Below, one piece after another: positions 47,084 through 64,000 of a stretch of DNA of 64,000 nucleotides (its first letter is position 1; each line of letters begins with the position of its first letter). The notes beneath the pieces were generated by a model. It had not been told where the DNA came from. It made no database searches and saw only the letters and a list, made by a program, of their open reading frames with translations. Origin of the DNA: Streptomyces sp. NBC_00250 (lineage in GTDB: Bacteria; Actinomycetota; Actinomycetes; Streptomycetales; Streptomycetaceae); assembly GCF_036192275.1 (NCBI RefSeq), contig NZ_CP108088.1, positions 558,001-622,000 on the forward strand, in the 5' to 3' direction. The translations under genes and the position numbers were made by a program.

Positions 47084-48853
47084 TCAGTTCGCGTTCACGA
47101 GGTCGTGCGCGGGGACGGTCACGGTCCGATTGCCGGGGGTGCCGCCGAGGACGACCTTCCGCAGGGCACTGTTGTTGTCGAGGTTGGTCTCCTTCAGCCG
47201 CTTGGCCGGGTTGGCCAGCACCTGGATGTAGTAGGTGCCGTTGGGCACGTCCGTGATGTCGAACGACTGCCCCGGCAGGTCCTGGGTGTAGGTGTCACCG
47301 GAGCCGACGTCCAGCACCTCGCGGACGGAGATGGAGTTCTCCTGGCCGCAGGCGGTGGAGAGGTCGGTGTTGAAGGGGTGCCAGTTGGCGTTCTTCACCG
47401 TGTAGTCGACGGCGTCGGTGTTGGCGAGGCAGAAGGCCTCCTTGCCGCTGCGCACCGCTTCCTTCTTGTCGGCCTTCAGCAGCCGGTAGCTGGCGAAGTC
47501 GGTGAAGTGCCAGTGCACGTGGCCGGGACGCGGGTCCCACTCCATGGTGCCGGTCGGGGTGTACCCGACCTGCTTGCCGTTGGCGTCGTAGAAGTACTGG
47601 TAGGCGTCCATCTTGGCCTTGCCGGGCGAACGGAAGCCGTCCACCACGAGCTGAGCCGGGCCGGCGTTCCAGACGTTGGCGCTGAAGGCCAGGTAGTCCT
47701 TGCCGGGAATGTTCTGGGCACCGTCGCTGATGGTGATGCCGTAGGCCGGCAGCGACCGCAGGTCGGGCTTGGGGACGGCCGGGACGGAGGGCGTGCCGGT
47801 GGGCCGCTTGGCCTGCGGGGTGAGGGCGGGTGCCTTGCGCGAGCCGTCGGTCTGCCCGGCGGCGTCACCGGCCTGCAGGTCCTGCACGTCCTGCGCGTCG
47901 GCGCGCTCGGCCTGCTGCTTCTTCGTGGCCCACGGCAGGGCCGGCGGCGCGGCCTTCAGCGGCCCGTGGCCCACGTTGTACGAGGGGCCCGCGCCGCTGG
48001 TCACCGGTGCGGCGGCCTGGACGGGCGTCGGACCGTGCCCCGGACCGTGCCCGGCGTGACCGGTCGGAGCCTGGTGGGCGCTGCCGTGCGCGGCGTGCTC
48101 CCCGGCGGTGGCCGGCTTGGCGGCCGAGACACCGGGTCCCTCCTCCCAGCTGCGCTCCTGGACGGTGACCTTCACGGTCGCCGGCTTGTCGGCGATCCCG
48201 AAGAGGTCCCGGTACTTCTTGGCGACCCCGACCTTGGCGGTGTACGTGCCGACGGGGAGCTTCACCGGCTGGGTGTAGGACCCGGCGTAGGTGTTGGCGG
48301 CCCACCCCTTCTCGACGCCCCACACCGAGCCGAGGGTGAACGCGTTGGTGGGGCAGCTCTCCGGATACTTCGAGGTGGAGGGCGCATCGGGTCGGACCCG
48401 TCCGCTGGCGTTGTTCGGACAGAAGCTCTCCGTCCGGCTGACGACCTTCTTGCCCGTCTTGTCGGTGACGGTGATCTCCGCGAAGCCGGGCAGCCCGGAG
48501 AAGTCCTTCACGGTGCCCAGGGGCAGCGCCTTGGCCTTGGCCTTGCCGCCCTCGTAGACGGTCTGGGTGATGGTCACCGGGTCCTTGTAGGACTTCCGGT
48601 TCACCTTGAGCTCCAGCGGTGTGCCCTCCGCGGTGAGGTAGGTGCCCAGGTCGAGGTAGACCCCCGGCTCCTCCTTCCAGGAGGTGAGCGTGACCGAGTC
48701 GGTCGCCGCGATGAGACTCAGCTTGGGCCCCGTCGCGGCCTTCGCCTGCTCCGGCGTCGCGGCCATGATGCCGGCCGTCACTGCCATGACGGCGACGGCC
48801 GTGGAACCGGCGAGCAGCGGACGCCGCAGCCGGGTGGTGCGCGTGGTGGTCAT
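47084..48853 (-). CDS. Secreted lysyl oxidase family protein with His-rich linker
   Basis: A 589-residue exported protein. The signal peptide (LRRPLLAGSTAVAVMAVTAGIMAA..., cleavage likely after QAKA) leads to a beta-rich N-terminal domain (about 45-250) with two Cys pairs (SFCPNN, ESCPTN). A linker rich in His and Gly (AAHGSAHQAPTGHAGHGPGH) follows, then the C-terminal lysyl oxidase domain with the copper motif PGHVHWHFTDFASYRLL. The family oxidises amines with copper and a quinone cofactor. I chose the ATG at 48853, since the preceding in-frame residues lack signal-peptide character. The His-rich linker may gather copper. Confidence 0.85.
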   Translation of the reverse strand: MTTTRTTRLRRPLLAGSTAVAVMAVTAGIMAATPEQAKAATGPKLSLIAATDSVTLTSWKEEPGVYLDLGTYLTAEGTPLELKVNRKSYKDPVTITQTVYEGGKAKAKALPLGTVKDFSGLPGFAEITVTDKTGKKVVSRTESFCPNNASGRVRPDAPSTSKYPESCPTNAFTLGSVWGVEKGWAANTYAGSYTQPVKLPVGTYTAKVGVAKKYRDLFGIADKPATVKVTVQERSWEEGPGVSAAKPATAGEHAAHGSAHQAPTGHAGHGPGHGPTPVQAAAPVTSGAGPSYNVGHGPLKAAPPALPWATKKQQAERADAQDVQDLQAGDAAGQTDGSRKAPALTPQAKRPTGTPSVPAVPKPDLRSLPAYGITISDGAQNIPGKDYLAFSANVWNAGPAQLVVDGFRSPGKAKMDAYQYFYDANGKQVGYTPTGTMEWDPRPGHVHWHFTDFASYRLLKADKKEAVRSGKEAFCLANTDAVDYTVKNANWHPFNTDLSTACGQENSISVREVLDVGSGDTYTQDLPGQSFDITDVPNGTYYIQVLANPAKRLKETNLDNNSALRKVVLGGTPGNRTVTVPAHDLVNAN

Positions 48854-55297: not shown

Positions 55298-56353
55298 TCA
55301 GCCGTCCAGGGGCTTGCGGGCGCGGAGGATGACGTCGAACCGCCCGGGGTACTGGCGATCCATCGGCTCGAAGCCCACTTCGGTGTACCACCGCTCGAAT
55401 TCCTGCGGCGTGTAGGTGCGGCCCTCGGGCGACGCGACCGTGTGGAGGTACGCCGACATGAACGCGGCGTGGGCGGGACCGGTCTCGTCGTCCTCCTGGG
55501 CGACGGCGACGATCACCATGTGACCGCCCGGCTCCAACGCCCGGTAGGTCTTCGCGAAGAGCTCGCGGACCTGCTCCGGGGACCAGATTTCGAGGAACCG
55601 GGAGTACACGACGCAGTCGTGGGACGACGTGGGGAACTCGTCCTGCAGGATGTCGGTTCCGATCGCGCGGACCCGCTCGGACAGGCCGGCCTCGGCGATC
55701 CGGTCGTTCGCCATCTTCGCCACGTTCGGCAGTTCGAGGATGGTCGCCTGGAGCTGCGGCCAGCGCTGGGCGAAGCTGATGGCGTTGGTTCCGGTGCCTC
55801 CGCCGACGTCCAGTACGCGCTGGTACGACGAGAAGTCCACGGTGTCGACGAAGTCCTCGACCACCGAGCGGCTCTGGTGCTCCATCATGGCGGTGAACAC
55901 CTTCTCGAGGTTCTCGTCCTCGCCGAGGAGCTCGTAGAGCGTGGTCGCCGACGATCCGGCGAGCAGCTCGCGGTGCAGCCCCAGGTTCTCGTTCTTCACC
56001 AGCGATTCGTACAGCCAGCCCACCGGCCGGTACAGCATCTCCTGCGTGTAGCGGATGATGACGGGCATGAAGGCGTCAGGATCGCCCGCCAGGAGATCGG
56101 TGGCGGCGGTGTTGTGATATCCCTCGCCGTCCTTGCGCACGAGGTCGAACGCGGAACACCCCAGCAGCAGCACGTGTCCCGCGCGTTCTTCGAGCCCCAG
56201 TTCGGCGGTGATCTCTTCGAGGGTGCTGCCCGGCCGCTCCTTGAGGAAGGTGAACAATTCCAGGCGTTGCGCGGCATGCAGGAACGGGAACCGGAAACTG
56301 CCGTACACCATATTCCACAGGTCGTCCAGGGCGGTCGCCGACGGTTCGGTCAT
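55298..56353 (-). CDS. SAM-dependent O-methyltransferase (COMT-like, Methyltransf_2)
   Basis: A 351-residue methyltransferase with an N-terminal winged-helix dimerisation domain (about 1-100, with the GLEERAGHVLLLGCSAFDLV region) and a C-terminal SAM domain with the motif VLDVGGGTGTNAISFAQRWP. Typical substrates are phenols, enols or hydroxy acids of specialised metabolites. The ATG has AAGGGGA 5 nt upstream. It is divergent from the NRPS across 472 bp and probably decorates its product. Directly downstream, in frame after the stop, lies a thioesterase relic. Confidence 0.88.
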   Translation of the reverse strand: MTEPSATALDDLWNMVYGSFRFPFLHAAQRLELFTFLKERPGSTLEEITAELGLEERAGHVLLLGCSAFDLVRKDGEGYHNTAATDLLAGDPDAFMPVIIRYTQEMLYRPVGWLYESLVKNENLGLHRELLAGSSATTLYELLGEDENLEKVFTAMMEHQSRSVVEDFVDTVDFSSYQRVLDVGGGTGTNAISFAQRWPQLQATILELPNVAKMANDRIAEAGLSERVRAIGTDILQDEFPTSSHDCVVYSRFLEIWSPEQVRELFAKTYRALEPGGHMVIVAVAQEDDETGPAHAAFMSAYLHTVASPEGRTYTPQEFERWYTEVGFEPMDRQYPGRFDVILRARKPLDG

Positions 56354-56825
56354 GATGATCCCCTTCACGGAATCGCGGGCCTCCGGCGTATGCCTTCGGC
56401 CGAGTCGTGGTGAAGTCCGGCATCGTCCGGTTCTGCCGATCGATGGCCCATGGGGCGCAGGCAGCGGAAGCCGGCGCCGCGGATCGCCATCCGCGGCCGG
56501 CTTCCACGACGAATACCGCCGCCCGACAGGCCTGAGCGGGCTTCGGTGCAACAGAGGCAACAACAAACTCCGGTGGTCACACAAGGCCCCTCATGCGGCG
56601 ATGATCACTGTGGGTGGCGTGAATCGTGCGGTGCACTCTTCCGCATCCCTTCACTTGAGGCCGCCGGAGCCCCGAAGACGCTCGAAATACTTTTGTTTAC
56701 AAGGCCGAAAACCACCCAGTCAACCAAGTACTGCGACTACCAGGATCCCTGCGTTCTGGATGCGTTCCGCTCGTCCGTGCAAGATCGGCCGCGGATCAGC
56801 AGACTTGTGCGAGGGGACCAAGCTT
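56354..56825. other. 472-bp divergent control region between O-methyltransferase and NRPS
   Basis: No convincing gene is present. It holds a very strong hairpin (56466-56505) and a locally AT-rich stretch (about 56690-56745, including CTTTTGTTTACAAGG) that likely contains the NRPS promoter; I could not fix -35/-10 elements with confidence. Confidence 0.5.
56466..56505. promoter_or_regulatory. Long hairpin in the divergent region
   Basis: Left arm GGAAGCCGG-CG-CCGCGGAT pairs with ATCCGCGGCCGGCTTCC around a CGCC tetraloop: 17 paired bases with one 2-nt bulge (CG). It could be an attenuator in one transcript or a cruciform/protein site. Confidence 0.55.
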
Positions 56826-59800
56826 GTGAATGCCATTGCGCGTACCCCACTGACGGCATATCAGCGTGACGTGTGGGCGGCCAACGCCAATTTCCCGGAA
56901 AACCCCCAGTTCAACTGCCAGATCTACGACAGCTTCCAGGGCTCCGCCGACCTCGGCCTACTGGCGGACTGCCTGCACCGGGCGGCCGAGGCGTCCGACG
57001 CGTTCCGGCTGCGTTTCGGCGAGGTGGAGGGCACGCCCCACCAGTGGCTCGCCGACGTGCCGGAGGTCCGCACGGTCGATCTGAGCGCCGAGCCCGATCC
57101 GGCGGCGGCCTGTCGCCGATGGATACGCGACTCCTTCGACCGGCCCTTCGATCTGCGCGGGGGACGGACGTCCGAACTGACCCTCCTCGTGGAGTCCGGT
57201 TCCGTCGTCCACGCGCACGTCAAGGCCCACCACATCGTCGCCGACGCCTGGGGCCTCAACCTGTTCATGACACGGGTCCGTGCCGACTACGAGCACGTCC
57301 TGCGCACCGGTGCACCGCTCACGGCCGAAGCCCCGCAGTACGTCGACTTCGTGCGCACCGAGGGCGACTACCGCGCCTCGCGGGAGCACGAGGCGGACCG
57401 GGACTTCTTCCGCGCGTCCATGGCGGGCGTCGTCCCCGAGTTCTTCCCCCGCAAGGAGGCCAGCGGCGCCCGGCGCAGCGCCCGCCACAGCTTCGTCGTC
57501 GAGCGGGCCCTGGTGAACCGGATCCGCGAGCGCGGCGAGTCGGTCTTCGCCTTCGTCTCGGCCGCCTTCTCCGTCTACCTCTCCCGCGTGCTGCGCACCG
57601 AGGAGATCGTGCTCGGCGTCCCGCTGCTCAACCGGCCCACCGACGAACAGCGGCGGACGGTCGGTCACTTCGCCAACACCCTGCCGCTGCTCGCACGTCC
57701 GTCGGGCGACAAGACCATGGGCGAGCTCGTGGCGGAGATCCGGGGCGCCACCCGCGCCCTCAAGCCGCACGAGCGGCTGGCCCTGGGCGACGTGCTGCGG
57801 GACGTCTCCCTGCACAGCAGCGACGGGCCACGCCGCCTGTTCGACGTGACCATCGCCCACCTGCGCTGGCCGCGGCAGCTGGAGCTCCCCGGCCTGTCCT
57901 ACGGGACCGTGGTGCAGGCCCGTGCCCACGACACGGACGCGCTGGCGGTCGTCGTCAACGAGCTCGACGACGTCGGCGACCTCCTCGTCGACGTGGACTA
58001 CGGCTGCGACGTCTTCGACGAGGACTTCCCCGTCGAGGCGGTGGGCCGCCATCTCAAGGCCCTCATCGAGCGCACCCTCGACGACCCGGACCTGCCGCTC
58101 GCCGGGATCTCCATGCTGGCCGCCGACGAGCGGGCCGCGCTGGTGGACGGCTGCAACAAGACGGCCGTGGAGTACGCCGCGGACCGGACGCTGCACGGGC
58201 TGTTCGAGGAGCAGGTCGCCCGTACCCCGGACCGCACGGCCGTCGTCGACGACGCCACCGGGGAATCGTTCACGTTCGCCGCGCTCGACGAGCGGGCCAA
58301 CCGCATCGCGCGGGTGCTGCGGGAGCGGGGGGTGCGACCCGGTGACCGCGTCGCGGTGCTGATGGACCGCTGCCTGGCCATGCCGGCCGCCGTCCTCGGC
58401 GTACTGAAGTCGGGCGGTGCCTATACGCCGGTGGCCCCGGACTACCCGGCGGAGCGGATCCGGTTCCTCATCGAGGACTCGGGCGCCAAGGCCGTCCTGG
58501 TGGCGGGCGGCGGCGAAGCCCACGGGCCGGCCGGCGGCGGGGTGCCCGTCCTGGACGTGGAGGAGCTGCCGCAGGCCTCCGGCGCACCCCTGGAGCCGGC
58601 CGCCGGCCCGCGCGACCCCGCCTACGTCATCTACACCTCGGGTTCCACGGGGAAGCCCAAGGGGGTGGTCGTCGAGCACCGTTCGGTGATCAACCGTCTG
58701 GCGTGGATGCAGAGCCGCTACCCCGTCGGCGAGGGCGACGTCCTGCTGCAGAAGACGCCGATCTCCTTCGACGTCTCGGTGTGGGAGCTGTTCTGGTGGG
58801 CCGTCGAGGGTGCCTCCCTCGCCCTGCTGCCGCCGGGCGGCGAGAAGGACCCCCGGGAGATCCTGCGTACGATCGCCCGCCGCCGGGTCGGCGTCGTCCA
58901 CTTCGTGCCGTCGATGTTCGCCGGCTTCCTGGACCTCCTGGAGGACGCCCCCGGGCTGGTCGACGACGCCCGGTCGCTGCACCACGTCTTCTGCAGCGGC
59001 GAGGCGCTCCCGCCCGCCCTGGTGGACCGATTCAACCGGGTCTTCGCCGGGCGGGCGGCACCCCGGCTCGTCAACCTGTACGGGCCGACCGAGGCCACCG
59101 TCGACGTCTCGTTCTTCGACTGCCCCGCCGACCCCGCACGGCCGGTGGGCCGCGTGCCGATCGGCCGGCCCATCGACAACATCCGTCTGTACGTGCTGGA
59201 CGAGGACGGCGGCCCGCAGCCGGTCGGCGCGCCCGGCGAGCTGTGCATCGCGGGTGTCGGCGTGGCCCGCGGCTATCTGAACCGGCCGGAGCTGACCCGG
59301 GAGAAGTTCGCCGACGACCCGTTCGTACCCGGCGGCCGCATGTACCGCACCGGCGACCTCGTGCGCCGCCTGGCGGACGGGGACATCGAGTACCTGGGCC
59401 GGATCGACGGACAGGTGAAGATCCGCGGCAACCGCGTCGAACTCGGCGAGGTGCAGGACCGCCTGGCGACCTGCCCCGGCGTCCGGACCGCGGCCGTCAC
59501 CGACCACCGGTCGGCCGACCGAGGCACCTACCTCGTCGGCTACTACACCGCAGACGAGGAACTGGACGCGGCGGTGCTGCGCGGTCATCTGGCCGCCGCC
59601 CTCCCCGGGTACATGATCCCGGCCCACTTCCAGCGGCTGGACGAGCTCCCGCTGACCCCGAACGGCAAGACCGACCGTCGCAGGCTCCCGGCGCCCGAGC
59701 TGTCCGCGACCGGTGACGAGGCACCGCGCGACGAGGTCGAGGCGGCACTGGCCGCCATCTGGTCCGAGGTGCTGGGCGTGGAGCGGGTGGGGGTGCACCA

Positions 59801-62800
59801 GAACTACTACGCCCTGGGCGGCGACTCCATCCTCATGCTGCGCATCCGCGCCCTGGCGGAGAAGCAGGGCATCCGCTTCGCCCTGGCCGACCTGGTGCTC
59901 AACCCCACCGTGGCCGGTCTCGCCGGACGGGTGCGCACCTCCGCCGCCCCGGCGGACGCGGCGGAGCCGGCGCCCTTCGCCCTCGTGCCGACCGTCGACC
60001 GGGCCCGGCTGACCGGCCTGGCCGACGCCTACCCCGCGACCCGCCTCCAGCTCGGCCTGCTCTACCACAGCCGCGAGCACGAGAACTCGGCCGTCTACCA
60101 CGACGTCTTCCACTACTCGCTCCGGCTGCCGTGGGACGAGCAGGCGCTGCGCACGGCGTTCGCCCGGCTCACGGTGCGGCACCCGGTGCTGCGCTCCGGC
60201 TTCTCGCTGGCCGGCTTCTCCGAACCCCTGCAGACCGTCCGCCCGCAGGTCGACGGCGGGCTGGAGGTCGTCGACCTGCGCGAGGCCGGTGCCGGAGAGG
60301 CCGAGGCCGTCATCGGGGCGCACATCGAGGAACGCCGCCACCACGCCTATGACTTCGACAACCCGCCGCTCTATCTCTTCCGCGCCCACGCCCTGCGGGA
60401 CTCGGTGGAGCTCGTCCTCAGCTTCCACCACGCGATCCTCGACGGCTGGAGCGTGGCGACCCTGGTCCGGGAGCTGCTGCAGGACTACCTGCACGAGACC
60501 GGGCAGGACGTGGAGCCCGTCGCGGACGGCCCGCTGCCGTCCGCCGCGCACTATGTGCTCGACGAGCGGCGTGCCCTGGCCTCCGAGGCCGGACGGGCTT
60601 TCTGGCGGCACAAGCTCGCCGGGGCGGAGCCCGTACAGTTCGACGGCTTCCGGCCGTACGAGGCGCCGGGCTCCGAGGGCGTCTTCGCGCACCGGGTGGA
60701 GCTCCCCGACGGTCTCGGGGAGGCGCTGCGCCGCTTCACCCGGGAGCGGTCCGTTCCCATCAAGTCCGTGCTGTTCGCCGCGCACTGCCTGCTGCTGCGG
60801 CTGTTCGGCGGCACCGACGACGTGGTCACCGGCCTCGTCATGCACGGGCGGCCGGAGCTCGCCGGTGCCGAGCGCGTCACGGGCCTGTTCCTCGGTACGA
60901 CGCCCATCCGCATCGGTCCGGGCCACCGCAGCTGGCTGGACGTGGTGCGCGAGGCCCATCTGCAGGAGCAGGAGGCGCACCCGCACCGCCACTACCCCCT
61001 GAGCGCCGTCCAGGAGGACCTCGGCGGCGACACCGTGATCGAGTCGGCCTTCAACTACGTCAACCCGCGTGTCCTCAGCGAGCTGCTGCAGAACACCGGT
61101 GTGGAGCTGACGGACTTCCGCACCTACGAGGAGACGAACTTCAAGCTCCTGGTCAACGCGGTCGTCGACCCGGCCGACAAGCGGATCTGGCTGCGCATGG
61201 ACCACGACGGCCGCGTCTTCACCCGGTCGCAGGCCGACCGGTTCGGCCGTGTCTACCTGGATCTGCTGCGCCGGATCGTCGAACGGCCCGACGAGCCCGT
61301 CGGTTTCGGTTTCCTCGCCCCGGCGGTCGCCCCAGCGCCCCGTACGGAGCTGCCCGCCCTGGTCACCGACCGTTTCGACGAGCGGGTCGCCGCGACACCG
61401 GACGCGATCGCCGTGGCCTTCGAGGACCAGCGGTGGACGTACCGGCGGCTGGGCGAGGCCGCCGACCGGGTGGCCCGCAGGCTGGTGCGGCTGGGTGCGG
61501 GCGCCGGTTCCCACATCGGCCTGGCGATGGACCGCTCCCCCGAGGTCGTGGCGGCGCTGCTGGGCATCGCCAAGGCCGGCGCGGCCTGCGTGCCCATGGA
61601 CGTGACGTACCCGCCGGACCGGCTCGCGCTGATGGTCGATCGCGCGGATCCCTTCCGGGTGCTCGCTCCCGAGCGTCACGCCGCTCTGTTCCCCGGCGCC
61701 CGAGTGCTTCCGCTGGACGAGGCGCTCGCGGCGGACGACGGCCCGGAACCGGTGGCGCTGCCCACCGTCACCGGGGAGACGACCGCGTACATCCTCTTCA
61801 CCTCCGGGTCGACCGGTGAGCCCAAGGGCGTCGTGCTGCCGCACCGGACGCTGGCCAACTACATGGAGTGGCAGATTCCCGCCGCGAGCGGGGCGGCCGG
61901 TGGCAAGACGCTGCAGTTCGCACCGCTGAGCTTCGACGTCTCCTTCCAGGAGATCTTCTCGACGCTGTGCGGCGGCGGCACGCTCCAGCTGGTCCGCGAG
62001 GACGAGCGGCGGGACATGCCCGCACTGCTGCGACTCCTCGACCGGGAGGCGGTCGAGCGGGTCTTCCTGCCGTACGTCGCGCTGCAGCAACTCGCCGAGG
62101 CCTCCGAGGCCCTCGGCATCCGCCCGGCCGCGCTGCGCGTGATCATCTCCTCCGGTGAGCAGCTGCGCGTCACCGACGAGATCCGCCGCTTCTGCGCCGC
62201 GGTGCCGGGAACGGTGCTGGAGAACCAGTACGGCCCCACCGAGACCCACCTCCTCACCAGCTTCACCATGTCCGGTGACCCGGCGGAGTTCCCGGCACTG
62301 CCGCCCATCGGCAGGCCCCTGGACGGCATCGACCTGTACGTGCTCGACGCCGACATGCGGCCCGTACCGCCCGGCGCGAAGGGCATCATCCACATCGGCG
62401 GCGTCTGCCTGGCCCACGGCTACCTGGGGCGGCCCGACCTCACCGACGAGCGCTTCGTCCCCCATCCCTTCGGGGAGCCCGGCGAACGCCTCTACCGCAC
62501 GGGCGACCTGGCCCGCCTCCTGCCGGGCGGCGACCTCGTCTGGCTCGGCCGGGAGGACTCCCAGGTCAAGGTGCGCGGCTTCCGCGTCGAACTCGCCGAG
62601 GTGGAACTGGCACTGACCAAGCTGGCCGACGAGTACCCCGGTGTCCGCGAGGTCGCGGTCGTGGCCCGCCACCGTGACGGCGCCGACGCCTTCCTCGCGG
62701 CCTTCCTCGTCGGCGAGGTGGGCGCGGCACCGGTCGAGGACCTCAGGGCGCGGCTGCGCGGGCTCCTGCCCGACTACATGGTGCCCTCGCACTTCGAGTG

Positions 62801-64000
62801 GCTGCCCGCGCTGCCGCTGACCCCCAGCGGGAAGCGGGACGACGCACGGCTGCGCCGCACGGCCCTGGCCTCCCGGGTGAGCGCCGACCGGGTGGCGCCG
62901 CGCGACGCCCAGGAACGCGCGCTGGCCGGAGTGCTGGCCGAGCTCCTGCAGGTGCCGGAGGTCGGGGTGCACGACGACTTCTTCGCGCTCGGCGGCACCT
63001 CGCTGACGGCGATGCGGCTCGTGGTGACGATCGAGAAGCTCTTCGGGGTCAACGTCCCGCTGTCGGCGCTCATCGGCACCCCCACCGTCGCCGGGCTCGC
63101 CGAGCGGCTGCGGGAGCGGGAGGCGGGCGTGGCCTACGACCCGGTCGTCCCGATCCGGACGACGGGCAGCCGCCCGCCGATGTTCCTCGTCCACCCGCTG
63201 GGCGGCAACGTGCTCTGCTACCTGGGCCTGGCCAAGCACCTGCCCGAGGACCAGCCGGTGTACGCGCTGCAGGCCGCCGGCACCCACCCGGGCGTCGAAC
63301 CGTCCGACTCCATACCCGAGATCGCCGCCCGCTACCTGGAGGCCGTCCGGCGGGCACGGCCCGACGGCCCGTACGTCATCGGCGGCTGGTCGTTCGGCGG
63401 CTTCATCGCGTTCGAGATGGCCCGGCAGCTGCGCCGTACCCATCCCGAGGACGTCGCCTCGCTGATCCTCATCGACCCGATCGCGGTCGCCCCCGGGGAC
63501 CGGCCGAGCATCGCCGACGGCTCCCTCCTGGAGTGGTTCTTCTGGGAACTGCTGTGGATGGAGCGCGGTGGGCAGACCCCGCTGGAGGCCATCCCCGAGG
63601 GCCTCGACGCCGACGGCAAGTTCGGCTTCGTCGTGGAGCGCGCCACGGCGGCGGGCATCCTGCCGGCGGAGGGGTCGCAGAGCGCGGTGCGCCGCCTCTT
63701 CGCGATGTTCAAGGCGCACTGGCACGCGCTGCTGACCTACCGGCCCGAGCGGGCCGACGAGGACCTCGTGCTGCTGCGGGCCGACGCTCCCCTGCCCAAG
63801 GTGCTCGAACCGATGCACGGTGCGGCCAGCAGCCTCCACGAGGACCCGTCGAACGGCTGGCGGGAGATGACCACCGGCCGGGTCGAGGTGGTCGACGTGC
63901 CCGGCGACCACTTGGTGCTTCTGGAGGAGCCGCACGTCGCCGTCGTCGCCGAGCATGTGGCACGGGCCGCTGAACGCCCCTTCCGGGAGGGAACTTCGGG
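56826..64000 (+). CDS. Two-module NRPS, C-A(Ser)-T-C-A-T-TE, partial at right edge
   Basis: At least 2,391 residues in one uninterrupted frame. C1 (about 5-440) has HHIVADA (H135, H136, D140), with Ala where HHxxxDG has Gly. A1 (about 456-950) has YTSGSTGKPKG and the specificity code D-V-W-H-F-S-L-V-D-K, the same as EntF, so L-serine. T1 carries S1001 (LGGDSI). C2 (about 1068-1500) has HHAILDG (H1201/H1202/D1206). A2 (about 1513-2005) reads D-V-Q-F-I-S-Q-L-L-K: DVQ is proline-like, the rest unassigned. T2 has S2059 (LGGTSL). The TE (about 2110 on) has GWSFGG (S2189) and GDH (H2362). GTG with GAGGGG 9 nt upstream. The C-terminus is probably within a few residues of the edge. Confidence 0.93.
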   Translation, partial: MNAIARTPLTAYQRDVWAANANFPENPQFNCQIYDSFQGSADLGLLADCLHRAAEASDAFRLRFGEVEGTPHQWLADVPEVRTVDLSAEPDPAAACRRWIRDSFDRPFDLRGGRTSELTLLVESGSVVHAHVKAHHIVADAWGLNLFMTRVRADYEHVLRTGAPLTAEAPQYVDFVRTEGDYRASREHEADRDFFRASMAGVVPEFFPRKEASGARRSARHSFVVERALVNRIRERGESVFAFVSAAFSVYLSRVLRTEEIVLGVPLLNRPTDEQRRTVGHFANTLPLLARPSGDKTMGELVAEIRGATRALKPHERLALGDVLRDVSLHSSDGPRRLFDVTIAHLRWPRQLELPGLSYGTVVQARAHDTDALAVVVNELDDVGDLLVDVDYGCDVFDEDFPVEAVGRHLKALIERTLDDPDLPLAGISMLAADERAALVDGCNKTAVEYAADRTLHGLFEEQVARTPDRTAVVDDATGESFTFAALDERANRIARVLRERGVRPGDRVAVLMDRCLAMPAAVLGVLKSGGAYTPVAPDYPAERIRFLIEDSGAKAVLVAGGGEAHGPAGGGVPVLDVEELPQASGAPLEPAAGPRDPAYVIYTSGSTGKPKGVVVEHRSVINRLAWMQSRYPVGEGDVLLQKTPISFDVSVWELFWWAVEGASLALLPPGGEKDPREILRTIARRRVGVVHFVPSMFAGFLDLLEDAPGLVDDARSLHHVFCSGEALPPALVDRFNRVFAGRAAPRLVNLYGPTEATVDVSFFDCPADPARPVGRVPIGRPIDNIRLYVLDEDGGPQPVGAPGELCIAGVGVARGYLNRPELTREKFADDPFVPGGRMYRTGDLVRRLADGDIEYLGRIDGQVKIRGNRVELGEVQDRLATCPGVRTAAVTDHRSADRGTYLVGYYTADEELDAAVLRGHLAAALPGYMIPAHFQRLDELPLTPNGKTDRRRLPAPELSATGDEAPRDEVEAALAAIWSEVLGVERVGVHQNYYALGGDSILMLRIRALAEKQGIRFALADLVLNPTVAGLAGRVRTSAAPADAAEPAPFALVPTVDRARLTGLADAYPATRLQLGLLYHSREHENSAVYHDVFHYSLRLPWDEQALRTAFARLTVRHPVLRSGFSLAGFSEPLQTVRPQVDGGLEVVDLREAGAGEAEAVIGAHIEERRHHAYDFDNPPLYLFRAHALRDSVELVLSFHHAILDGWSVATLVRELLQDYLHETGQDVEPVADGPLPSAAHYVLDERRALASEAGRAFWRHKLAGAEPVQFDGFRPYEAPGSEGVFAHRVELPDGLGEALRRFTRERSVPIKSVLFAAHCLLLRLFGGTDDVVTGLVMHGRPELAGAERVTGLFLGTTPIRIGPGHRSWLDVVREAHLQEQEAHPHRHYPLSAVQEDLGGDTVIESAFNYVNPRVLSELLQNTGVELTDFRTYEETNFKLLVNAVVDPADKRIWLRMDHDGRVFTRSQADRFGRVYLDLLRRIVERPDEPVGFGFLAPAVAPAPRTELPALVTDRFDERVAATPDAIAVAFEDQRWTYRRLGEAADRVARRLVRLGAGAGSHIGLAMDRSPEVVAALLGIAKAGAACVPMDVTYPPDRLALMVDRADPFRVLAPERHAALFPGARVLPLDEALAADDGPEPVALPTVTGETTAYILFTSGSTGEPKGVVLPHRTLANYMEWQIPAASGAAGGKTLQFAPLSFDVSFQEIFSTLCGGGTLQLVREDERRDMPALLRLLDREAVERVFLPYVALQQLAEASEALGIRPAALRVIISSGEQLRVTDEIRRFCAAVPGTVLENQYGPTETHLLTSFTMSGDPAEFPALPPIGRPLDGIDLYVLDADMRPVPPGAKGIIHIGGVCLAHGYLGRPDLTDERFVPHPFGEPGERLYRTGDLARLLPGGDLVWLGREDSQVKVRGFRVELAEVELALTKLADEYPGVREVAVVARHRDGADAFLAAFLVGEVGAAPVEDLRARLRGLLPDYMVPSHFEWLPALPLTPSGKRDDARLRRTALASRVSADRVAPRDAQERALAGVLAELLQVPEVGVHDDFFALGGTSLTAMRLVVTIEKLFGVNVPLSALIGTPTVAGLAERLREREAGVAYDPVVPIRTTGSRPPMFLVHPLGGNVLCYLGLAKHLPEDQPVYALQAAGTHPGVEPSDSIPEIAARYLEAVRRARPDGPYVIGGWSFGGFIAFEMARQLRRTHPEDVASLILIDPIAVAPGDRPSIADGSLLEWFFWELLWMERGGQTPLEAIPEGLDADGKFGFVVERATAAGILPAEGSQSAVRRLFAMFKAHWHALLTYRPERADEDLVLLRADAPLPKVLEPMHGAASSLHEDPSNGWREMTTGRVEVVDVPGDHLVLLEEPHVAVVAEHVARAAERPFREGTS

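Follow-up and report, generated by a model that had tools for sequence, protein, structure and literature searches.

A probable bohemamine-type gene cluster of Streptomyces sp. NBC_00250 and its linked clpP pair, a likely self-resistance determinant

Bacterial pyrrolizidine and bicyclic carbamate alkaloids are described as products of a short assembly line, in which an acyl-dehydroalanyl-proline (acyl-Dha-Pro) thioester is formed on a nonribosomal peptide synthetase (NRPS), the enamide carbon attacks the thioester in the terminal thioesterase (TE) domain to give an indolizidine, and Baeyer-Villiger oxidation to a 5+7 carbamate is followed by trapping or ring contraction (PMC10880069, PMC11457151, PMC11177316). 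The lga cluster, known for legoncarbamate and the bohemamines, combines an NRPS with the domain order C-A-T-C-A-T-TE (C, condensation; A, adenylation; T, carrier) for serine and proline or 5-methylproline with the LgnC-like enzyme LgaE, a branched-chain keto-acid dehydrogenase and the methyltransferase LgaA, proposed to act at C-7 (PMC7820566). The bicyclic carbamate metaze B, which belongs to this family, is an inhibitor of mycobacterial ClpP1/P2:C1 and covalently modifies ClpP1 as well as ClpP2 of M. tuberculosis, with a mass gain of about 262 Da (PMC13386464). In Streptomyces, proteolysis is carried out by the ClpP1 triad and ClpP2 docks the ATPases, a ClpP2 S131A variant keeping full activity (PMC9765437). 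The locus considered here lies in a stretch of 64,000 nt of Streptomyces sp. NBC_00250 (G000:C1:558001-622000, from a genome of 9.27 Mb; hereafter the window), where an NRPS of the same order stands beside a flavin adenine dinucleotide (FAD) monooxygenase and a methyltransferase, and a pair of clpP genes follows beyond the right edge. The results suggest, with a probability of roughly 0.7, a cluster of the bohemamine/legoncarbamate type with a ClpP-acylating carbamate, in which the linked pair, ClpP1* and ClpP2* (the asterisk marking cluster-linked copies), confers self-resistance. The alkaloid family itself is already known; no paper naming bohemamine and ClpP together was found in the literature searched.

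Pathway family and subfamily of the NRPS locus

Membership of the LgnC/PxaA-type pyrrolizidine/bicyclic-carbamate pathway family is close to certain. The published signatures of LgnC-type enzymes are GxGxxG, YWWxTKN and GDAAH (PMC7820566), and in LgnC the H200A and W221A substitutions abolish activity, Y219F loses 95% and R207Q keeps about half (PMC11457151). The window enzyme contains YWWGTKN and GDAAH, together with H204, R211, Y223 and W225, which correspond to LgnC His200, Arg207, Tyr219 and Trp221. A search of 295 genus genomes (E <= 1e-60) matched 32, and the genomic context was retrieved for each of these except the window's own (31); NRPS domains adjoin the enzyme in 24 of the 31 contexts, and the H/R/Y/W set occurs in all 24 and in none of the remaining seven. 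With further loci, the set is present in 42/42 NRPS-linked rows (41 distinct) and in 0/7 others. The same division appears in the monooxygenase tree, where the 42 NRPS-linked rows, the window included, form one side of a branch (100/100) opposite the seven NRPS-less rows, and this side holds a row from a legonmycin-architecture locus (G506a) and one from Xenorhabdus hominickii. Since YWWxTKN is strict in 16 of 25 NRPS-linked enzymes (window included), the four residues are the better marker. The LgnC-type assignment was made from published motifs and residues and from the tree of relatives. From a named-genome scan for the monooxygenase, eight of 80 loci were used (L080-L087, 45-55% identical) and L088-L159 were left out; L063 is the L083 genome and L046 belongs to the window's species. 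An earlier sequence-only reading of this DNA had proposed a group A monooxygenase of this pathway type and a pyrrolizidine-type product, and both proposals are supported overall, the product class being widened to pyrrolizidines and bicyclic carbamates; the flavoprotein and the methyltransferase both lie to the left of the interval 56826..64000 that it gave.

The NRPS domain order proposed in that reading agrees with the Pfam content (two Condensation, two AMP-binding, two PP-binding and one Thioesterase) and with the motif positions. The start is a choice among candidates, the simple gene caller having preferred 56871 over the GTG at 56826. The serine code of A1 (DVWHFSLVDK), likewise recognized earlier, is identical in 25/25 A1 rows compared, and by this code A1 would supply the serine of the pathway. 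For C1, the suggested role of an acylating starter domain gains some support from the nearest solved chains, which are ObiF1 (86 bits, E 2e-23) and the 7c1k series (84 bits, 1e-22; presumably starter condensation domains), but their lead over Txo2 (69) is modest. EntF is among the solved relatives as well; an EntF/DhbF-like siderophore reading of C1-A1 was set aside, as neither the monooxygenase signature nor C2 agrees with it. The best solved match of C2 is the McyA C domain (1e-75), followed by AmbE C2 (1e-48), ahead of the C domains of bacitracin, surfactin and tyrocidine synthesis, and these nearest relatives suggest that C2 is related to the dehydrating (CmodAA) C domains. AmbE C2 and LgnD-C2 are grouped with dehydrating C domains in PMC10880069, where microcystin and bleomycin are named for CmodAA; a motif GGDSI is also contrasted there with the GGHSL of LCL donors, and T1 of the window's NRPS reads GGDSI.

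The second adenylation domain, A2, had been called partly proline-like and without an assignable code; the first part of this description stands, whereas the second is corrected, as DVQVISQLLK is a variant of the family's proline-like code. Among 45 rows, 26 read DVQx[IVL]SQV[VA](K), four DVQWISQIA(K), seven DVQ[VA]ISQLL(K) and eight otherwise. The seven rows, from six species, constitute the window's subfamily; it shares the common family code except at Leu330/Leu331, and these two residues are restricted to it (7/45 rows). The eight include X. hominickii (DVQIISQVI(K)), and PxaA of X. stockiae, from the same genus, uses proline (PMC11794875). As judged from its code, A2 may take proline or a proline analogue. 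Homologues of solved azetidine-2-carboxylate (AZE) synthases were found (E <= 1e-10) in 4/4 genomes with W278, that is, with the DVQWISQIAK code, and in 0/8 other genomes searched, the window's included, and this pairing supports the reading of A2 positions as substrate-linked. In the A2 tree the sister group (98/96) of the window's subfamily consists of five rows and includes all four with the code DVQWISQIAK; the monooxygenase tree leaves this relation open. The AZE synthase homologue of one such genome, G299, matches the solved enzymes 8ryd (E 2e-49) and 8ryg (3e-16) and adjoins ARD, HAD hydrolase, phosphorylase and IF-2B/aldolase genes (L191:4912-9515), a set that would fit the salvage of methylthioadenosine formed as by-product of the AZE synthase.

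The methyltransferase (E <= 1e-120) is present in 5/392 genus genomes (G000, the window's own, G004, G162, G568 and G607), and a family search added G409, from another genus, and G516. In all seven genomes (six species, two genera) it occurs together with the NRPS, the monooxygenase, a short-chain dehydrogenase/reductase (SDR) and a SIS-domain protein, in differing gene orders; both clpP genes accompany them in six, and G409 has the P2-like gene only, its contig starting there. In G162 the clpP pair, hydrolase, methyltransferase, SDR, SIS, NRPS and monooxygenase genes lie within about 18 kb in another order. Because the methyltransferase travels with these genes in 7/7 genomes, it belongs to a conserved cassette and is not the extra that it had been taken for; the "O-" of its earlier name is also unsupported, the nearest solved chain being SibL and C-7 methylation having been proposed for LgaA. 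In a protein search, 25 further methyltransferases of at least 76% identity stand among the matches listed, followed by a drop to 50%. Across the six subfamily species the hydrolase is found in 5/6, a P450 in 4/6 and 2-oxo-acid dehydrogenase genes in 3/6, E1a/E1b/E2 genes adjoining the clusters of G162, G516 and G568. Assignment to a bohemamine-type subfamily is probable, and the wholly new product previously considered is less likely, since a described subfamily fits.

The cluster-linked clpP pair and loss of the ClpP2* triad

The cluster reaches past the right edge of the window. The sequence-only reading had advised following the right flank, and it is there, 1.6 kb beyond the NRPS and on the opposite strand, that the clpP pair lies; the genome has five clpP genes. 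The identity of the pair's products to the ClpP1 and ClpP2 encoded elsewhere in the genome is 75% and 68%, against 56-60% and 50-56% for P3P4 rows. A tree of 44 ClpP proteins separates the cluster-linked copies from P3P4 and P5 and places them in two clades, one P1-like (99/98; window, G162, G516 and G289 contig 75) and one P2-like (93/91; the same four and G409). By these comparisons the pair is nearer to clpP1P2 than to clpP3P4 or P5, and a popR-clpP3P4 identity was not borne out. A separate observation concerns G254, where two equally scoring clpP3P4-like pairs (G254:C1:759677-760830 and 10780000-10781153) lie near opposite chromosome ends, as expected of a terminal inverted repeat. The pair accompanies two subfamilies, the sisters of the A2 tree: in G299 pair and NRPS share a contig, with about 23 kb between them, and in G289, G423 and G541 an additional P1P2-like pair sits on a contig other than that of the NRPS, the G289 pair being the one included in the tree. 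The cluster is thus accompanied by an additional clpP that differs from the housekeeping genes and is conserved with it, which is the pattern looked for in target duplication.

Triad residues are lost from ClpP2* in 5/6 species of the window's subfamily. The window's copy retains the catalytic Ser (S120) but has Asn in place of the preceding Ala, and Gln145 stands where the catalytic His is expected. The His is likewise Gln in G162, G607 and G409 and is Ser in G568; G162 and G607 have in addition Ala for the Asp, whose position was placed from the housekeeping rows and the general pattern of the family. The triad is kept in G516, G289 and G299, and in 3/3 of these triad-intact cluster copies the Ala before the catalytic Ser is changed as well. 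In contrast, 6/6 housekeeping ClpP2 rows retain the whole Ser-His-Asp triad together with the Ala that precedes its Ser. ClpP1* keeps Ser and His and reads GFCASMG in 7/7 cluster copies versus G[ML]AASMG in 8/8 housekeeping copies.

On the ClpP2* tree the altered triad state requires four changes, at least three of them forced by well-supported branches, in a count that treats gains and losses alike. This tree has 50 rows. Eight are cluster copies and six are housekeeping copies; the other 36 come from the 120 database proteins listed, namely 29 out of the first 39, limited to those under 235 aa, and seven picked for an altered or related state, some of them being database entries for genes already represented. 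Because rows were selected the share of dead copies in it is no frequency. Among the 120 closest listed proteins, unselected, 13 lack the His, 17 have at least one triad residue changed and two more are gapped at Asp, in a list biased by a query that itself lacks His and including some long fused proteins. The ratio of nonsynonymous to synonymous substitution rates (dN/dS, Nei-Gojobori) among the His-less ClpP2* of the window, G162, G607 and G568 is 0.11-0.28, and in the same genomes it is 0.16-0.24 for ClpP1* and 0.14-0.28 for the monooxygenase; as the values are alike, these genes are under purifying selection and are not decaying. No earlier report of ClpP2* triad loss was met in the literature searches, Culp 2022 and Liu 2020 being outside their reach.

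Proposed mechanism and alternative explanations

From the gene content, signatures, codes, phylogeny, co-conservation and triad loss, we infer the following substrates, order of reactions, product, ClpP inhibition and resistance. C1 would acylate serine on T1 with a short acyl-CoA, and C2 would dehydrate acyl-Ser to acyl-Dha and couple it to proline or an analogue on T2 (5-methylproline is proposed for described relatives). Upon release by the TE, the Dha enamide carbon may attack the thioester to give a 5+6 indolizidine, into which the flavoprotein would insert oxygen, yielding a 5+7 cyclic carbamate that is trapped or collapses to a pyrrolizidine; the methyltransferase is predicted to C-methylate the bicycle. 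The carbamate could acylate the catalytic serines of ClpP, and the clpP pair is likely to provide self-resistance against it. ClpP1*, with its triad kept and an active-site neighbour changed from Ala to Cys, may resist through the changed pocket, and ClpP2*, deprived of its general base (His to Gln), would not be acylable and could still serve as the ATPase-docking ring. ClpP2 catalysis is dispensable, because the S131A variant leaves full proteolysis, and so the producer could afford a triad-less ClpP2* and gain a ring proof against acylation. The repeated triad loss is tentatively explained in this manner, as resistance by removal of the nucleophile's helper with ClpP1* carrying proteolysis at a changed site, although the odds of this part fall somewhat short of even.

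The alternative that comes closest is that the alkaloid is made but that ClpP2*, its catalysis never having mattered, lost the triad by neutral drift, or that the pair is regulatory and not protective, and it is unlikely while deserving attention. The dispensability of ClpP2 catalysis in Streptomyces (PMC9765437) means that drift would be tolerated, G516 retains the triad, and over wide pairs the rate of change is somewhat higher in ClpP2* than in ClpP1*; however, catalysis is equally dispensable in the housekeeping ClpP2 rows, all six of which keep the triad and the Ala, and this Ala is changed even in the three cluster copies with an intact triad. It is very improbable that a pyrrolizidine cluster of the same family lies by chance next to an ordinary popR-clpP3P4 backup locus. 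Five clpP genes are a common number in the genus sample and a regulator adjoins the pair, but the identities and clades set the pair with clpP1P2 and with other cluster-linked copies, the P2-like gene remains beside the cassette in all seven methyltransferase genomes in spite of the differing orders, and the regulator (L009:1799-2470) is MmyB-like, with relatives (40-58% identical) recurring near related NRPS clusters (L181:5601-6257 and the G516 and G299 loci; also G045). An azetidine cluster similar to those of clipibicyclene and azetidomonamide, with A2 taking AZE and an azabicyclene as product, is the least credible of the three. The sister position of the A2 subfamilies and the extra clpP1P2-like pair carried also by the four DVQWISQIAK genomes would agree with it, but the A2 code is without W278, no polyketide synthase (PKS) family occurs among the 30 flanking genes scanned, whereas G299 has one, and since no AZE synthase homologue is found in the window's genome the azetidine type is excluded.

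Several observations weigh against a bohemamine/legoncarbamate-type cluster with ClpP self-resistance. The P2-like clade joins housekeeping ClpP2 at 93/89, below the threshold for starred branches, and the P1-like clade meets housekeeping P1 and the P3P4 partners in a fork whose order the tree leaves open. A clpP gene lies within 20 kb on the same contig in only 3/25 NRPS-linked genus genomes (G000, G004, G162), many of which are short-contig drafts. The intact triad of G516 occurs within the window's own subfamily, and in wider pairs dN/dS reaches 0.48 for ClpP2* versus 0.27 for ClpP1*, which indicates weaker constraint on ClpP2*. The specificity of A2 is taken from its code, and Leu330/Leu331 could signal another amino acid. 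A P450 and a 2-oxo-acid dehydrogenase of the relatives' kind were not found in 103 kb of the window's genome, and the product may therefore be simpler than bohemamine; moreover, the E1a of the relatives is named by NCBIfam as a pyruvate dehydrogenase subunit and not a branched-chain one. Finally, the likeness to the lga and bohemamine (bhm) clusters, LgaA included, is drawn from their published descriptions.

If the proposed cluster type and self-resistance are correct, bohemamine-type alkaloids or their 5+7 carbamate precursors are predicted ClpP inhibitors, and a target and a reactive intermediate would be assigned to a group known mostly by its stable end products. The pair would also provide a natural case of resistance through a hetero-oligomeric target, one of whose subunit types has lost its catalytic activity. 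The triad state of ClpP2*, A2 positions 278/330/331 and the cassette genes may serve as sorting rules for such clusters.

Neighbouring features and comparison with known systems

Table 1. Features of the locus. Beyond the right edge of the window, positions are L009 coordinates plus 63000.
Feature	Position	Strand	Basis or remark
LgnC-type FAD monooxygenase (Baeyer-Villiger), 391 aa	53982..55157	-	Pfam, motifs, H204/R211/Y223/W225, tree
S-adenosylmethionine (SAM) methyltransferase, SibL-like, probable bohemamine-type subfamily; C- likelier than O-methylation	55298..56350	-	Pfam, nearest solved chain
Divergent intergenic region methyltransferase/NRPS	56351..56825	.	
Bimodular NRPS C-A-T-C-A-T-TE, 2396 aa	56826..64016 (16 bases past window edge)	+	Open frame from GTG, Pfam, motifs
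C1, putative acylating starter condensation domain	56844..58100 (ends approximate)	+	HHIVADA at 57228-57248; nearest solved ObiF1, 7c1k
A1, serine (DVWHFSLVDK)	58203..59681	+	Pfam, code, motifs
T1 carrier	59730..59930 (ends approximate)	+	GGDSI at 59817; Pfam, motifs
C2, putative dehydrating (Ser to Dha)	60024..61301	+	HHAILDG at 60426-60446; nearest solved McyA C, AmbE C2
A2, Pro-like code DVQVISQLLK	61344..62843 (ends approximate)	+	Code, motifs
T2 carrier, GGTSL	62919..63110	+	Pfam, motifs
TE, GWSFGG, proposed C-C cyclising release	63177..63962	+	Pfam, motifs
MmyB-like regulator	64799-65470	+	Beyond window
clpP2*	65597-66265	-	Beyond window
clpP1*	66323-66967	-	Beyond window
Dienelactone-hydrolase-like protein	67543-68361	+	Beyond window
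Small methyltransferase	L009:5452-6120		Beyond window, between hydrolase and SDR
SDR	69283-70023	+	Beyond window
SIS-domain protein	70101-71204	+	Beyond window
Aminotransferase			Beyond window, right of the NRPS

The coordinates of the locus are collected in Table 1. To the left of the monooxygenase, alkyl-sulfatase-like, TetR and esterase genes match the same species only in the contexts fetched, and for this reason they were kept out of the cluster; the alkyl-sulfatase-like and esterase proteins have no match in the six subfamily loci. A kynurenine/methyl-anthranilate route, considered in view of the SibL-like methyltransferase, was rejected, no tryptophan-pathway family occurring among the 30 flanking genes scanned. 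The small methyltransferase was also considered as an AZE synthase and rejected: its listed solved matches do not include 8ryd/8ryg, and it is unmatched in the other subfamily loci. That the SDR and SIS proteins supply an unusual proline is a guess. To the right of the cluster lies a gene for a Radical-SAM protein of about 844 aa in which no other Pfam domain was found (L009:11764-14298). Elsewhere in the window, a same-strand run at 16038-42255, scanned in part of its genes, resembles an exopolysaccharide-type locus with UDP-glucose dehydrogenase, Wzz-like, asparagine-synthase-like and heparinase-like proteins, glycosyltransferases, polysaccharide pyruvyl transferase and a class III aminotransferase, and a bacterial lysyl-oxidase-domain protein of 589 aa is encoded at 47084-48853. 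A search of the plasmid collection gave one match, 50% identical.

Among described systems, the lga cluster of Streptomyces sp. CT37 and the bohemamine cluster of Streptomyces sp. CB02009 fit best, sharing the C-A-T-C-A-T-TE NRPS (there for serine and proline or 5-methylproline, here by code for serine and possibly proline or an analogue), the LgnC-type enzyme, the methyltransferase and, beside relatives of the window's cluster, a 2-oxo-acid dehydrogenase. Unlike lga, the window's cluster has no branched-chain keto-acid dehydrogenase beside its core (103 kb), and therefore the term bohemamine-type subfamily is preferred to bohemamine cluster. The main text of PMC7820566 makes no mention of ClpP. 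The ClpP2* of G568 and the database protein P0248 are at distance 0 in the tree, and the latter bears the name of S. spinoverrucosus, a species that titles cited in PMC8748450 give as a source of bohemamine-type alkaloids. The clipibicyclene (cac, S. cattleya), metaze and azetidomonamide systems resemble the locus in NRPS and monooxygenase types, a cluster-linked clpP and, as predicted for the locus, a ClpP-acylating carbamate, but the azetidine clusters differ in their AZE synthase, the W278 code of A2, a PKS in G299 and the intact ClpP2* triad of G299 and G289.

The pyrrolizixenamide (PxaA/PxaB) and brabantamide (BraB/BraC) systems are similar in their bimodular NRPS, single Baeyer-Villiger monooxygenase and proposed chemistry (PMC11177316, PMC11794875); the monooxygenase of the Xenorhabdus hominickii locus is 45% identical to that of the window, and no clpP match was found in that 21-kb locus. 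Legonmycin biosynthesis (LgnA-D) shares the LgnC-type enzyme and, as suggested for the window's NRPS, a dehydrating C2, but uses Thr and an NRPS split into A-T and C-T-C-A-T-TE. The sequence-only reading had named LgnA/LgnB as an architectural match and LgnB as the monooxygenase; however, the monooxygenase is LgnC and the NRPS is divided between LgnB and LgnD (PMC11457151), so that PxaA, BraB and LgaD are the closer architectural matches. The legonmycin architecture was itself observed in G506 (L195:7221-16592), as a C-T-C-A-T-TE NRPS, an LgnC-type enzyme, a separate A-T and a type II thioesterase-like protein, and this genome also has a second, ordinary bimodular copy. As to resistance, the pair resembles ClpP_ADEP of S. 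hawaiiensis, the producer of acyldepsipeptides (ADEP), where an accessory clpP near the cluster acts in self-resistance (PMC12607617). ClpP_ADEP, however, is one extra ClpP that replaces ClpP1 and works with ClpP2, whereas the cluster described here is accompanied by a P1-like and P2-like pair, of which the P2-like member is without its catalytic His.

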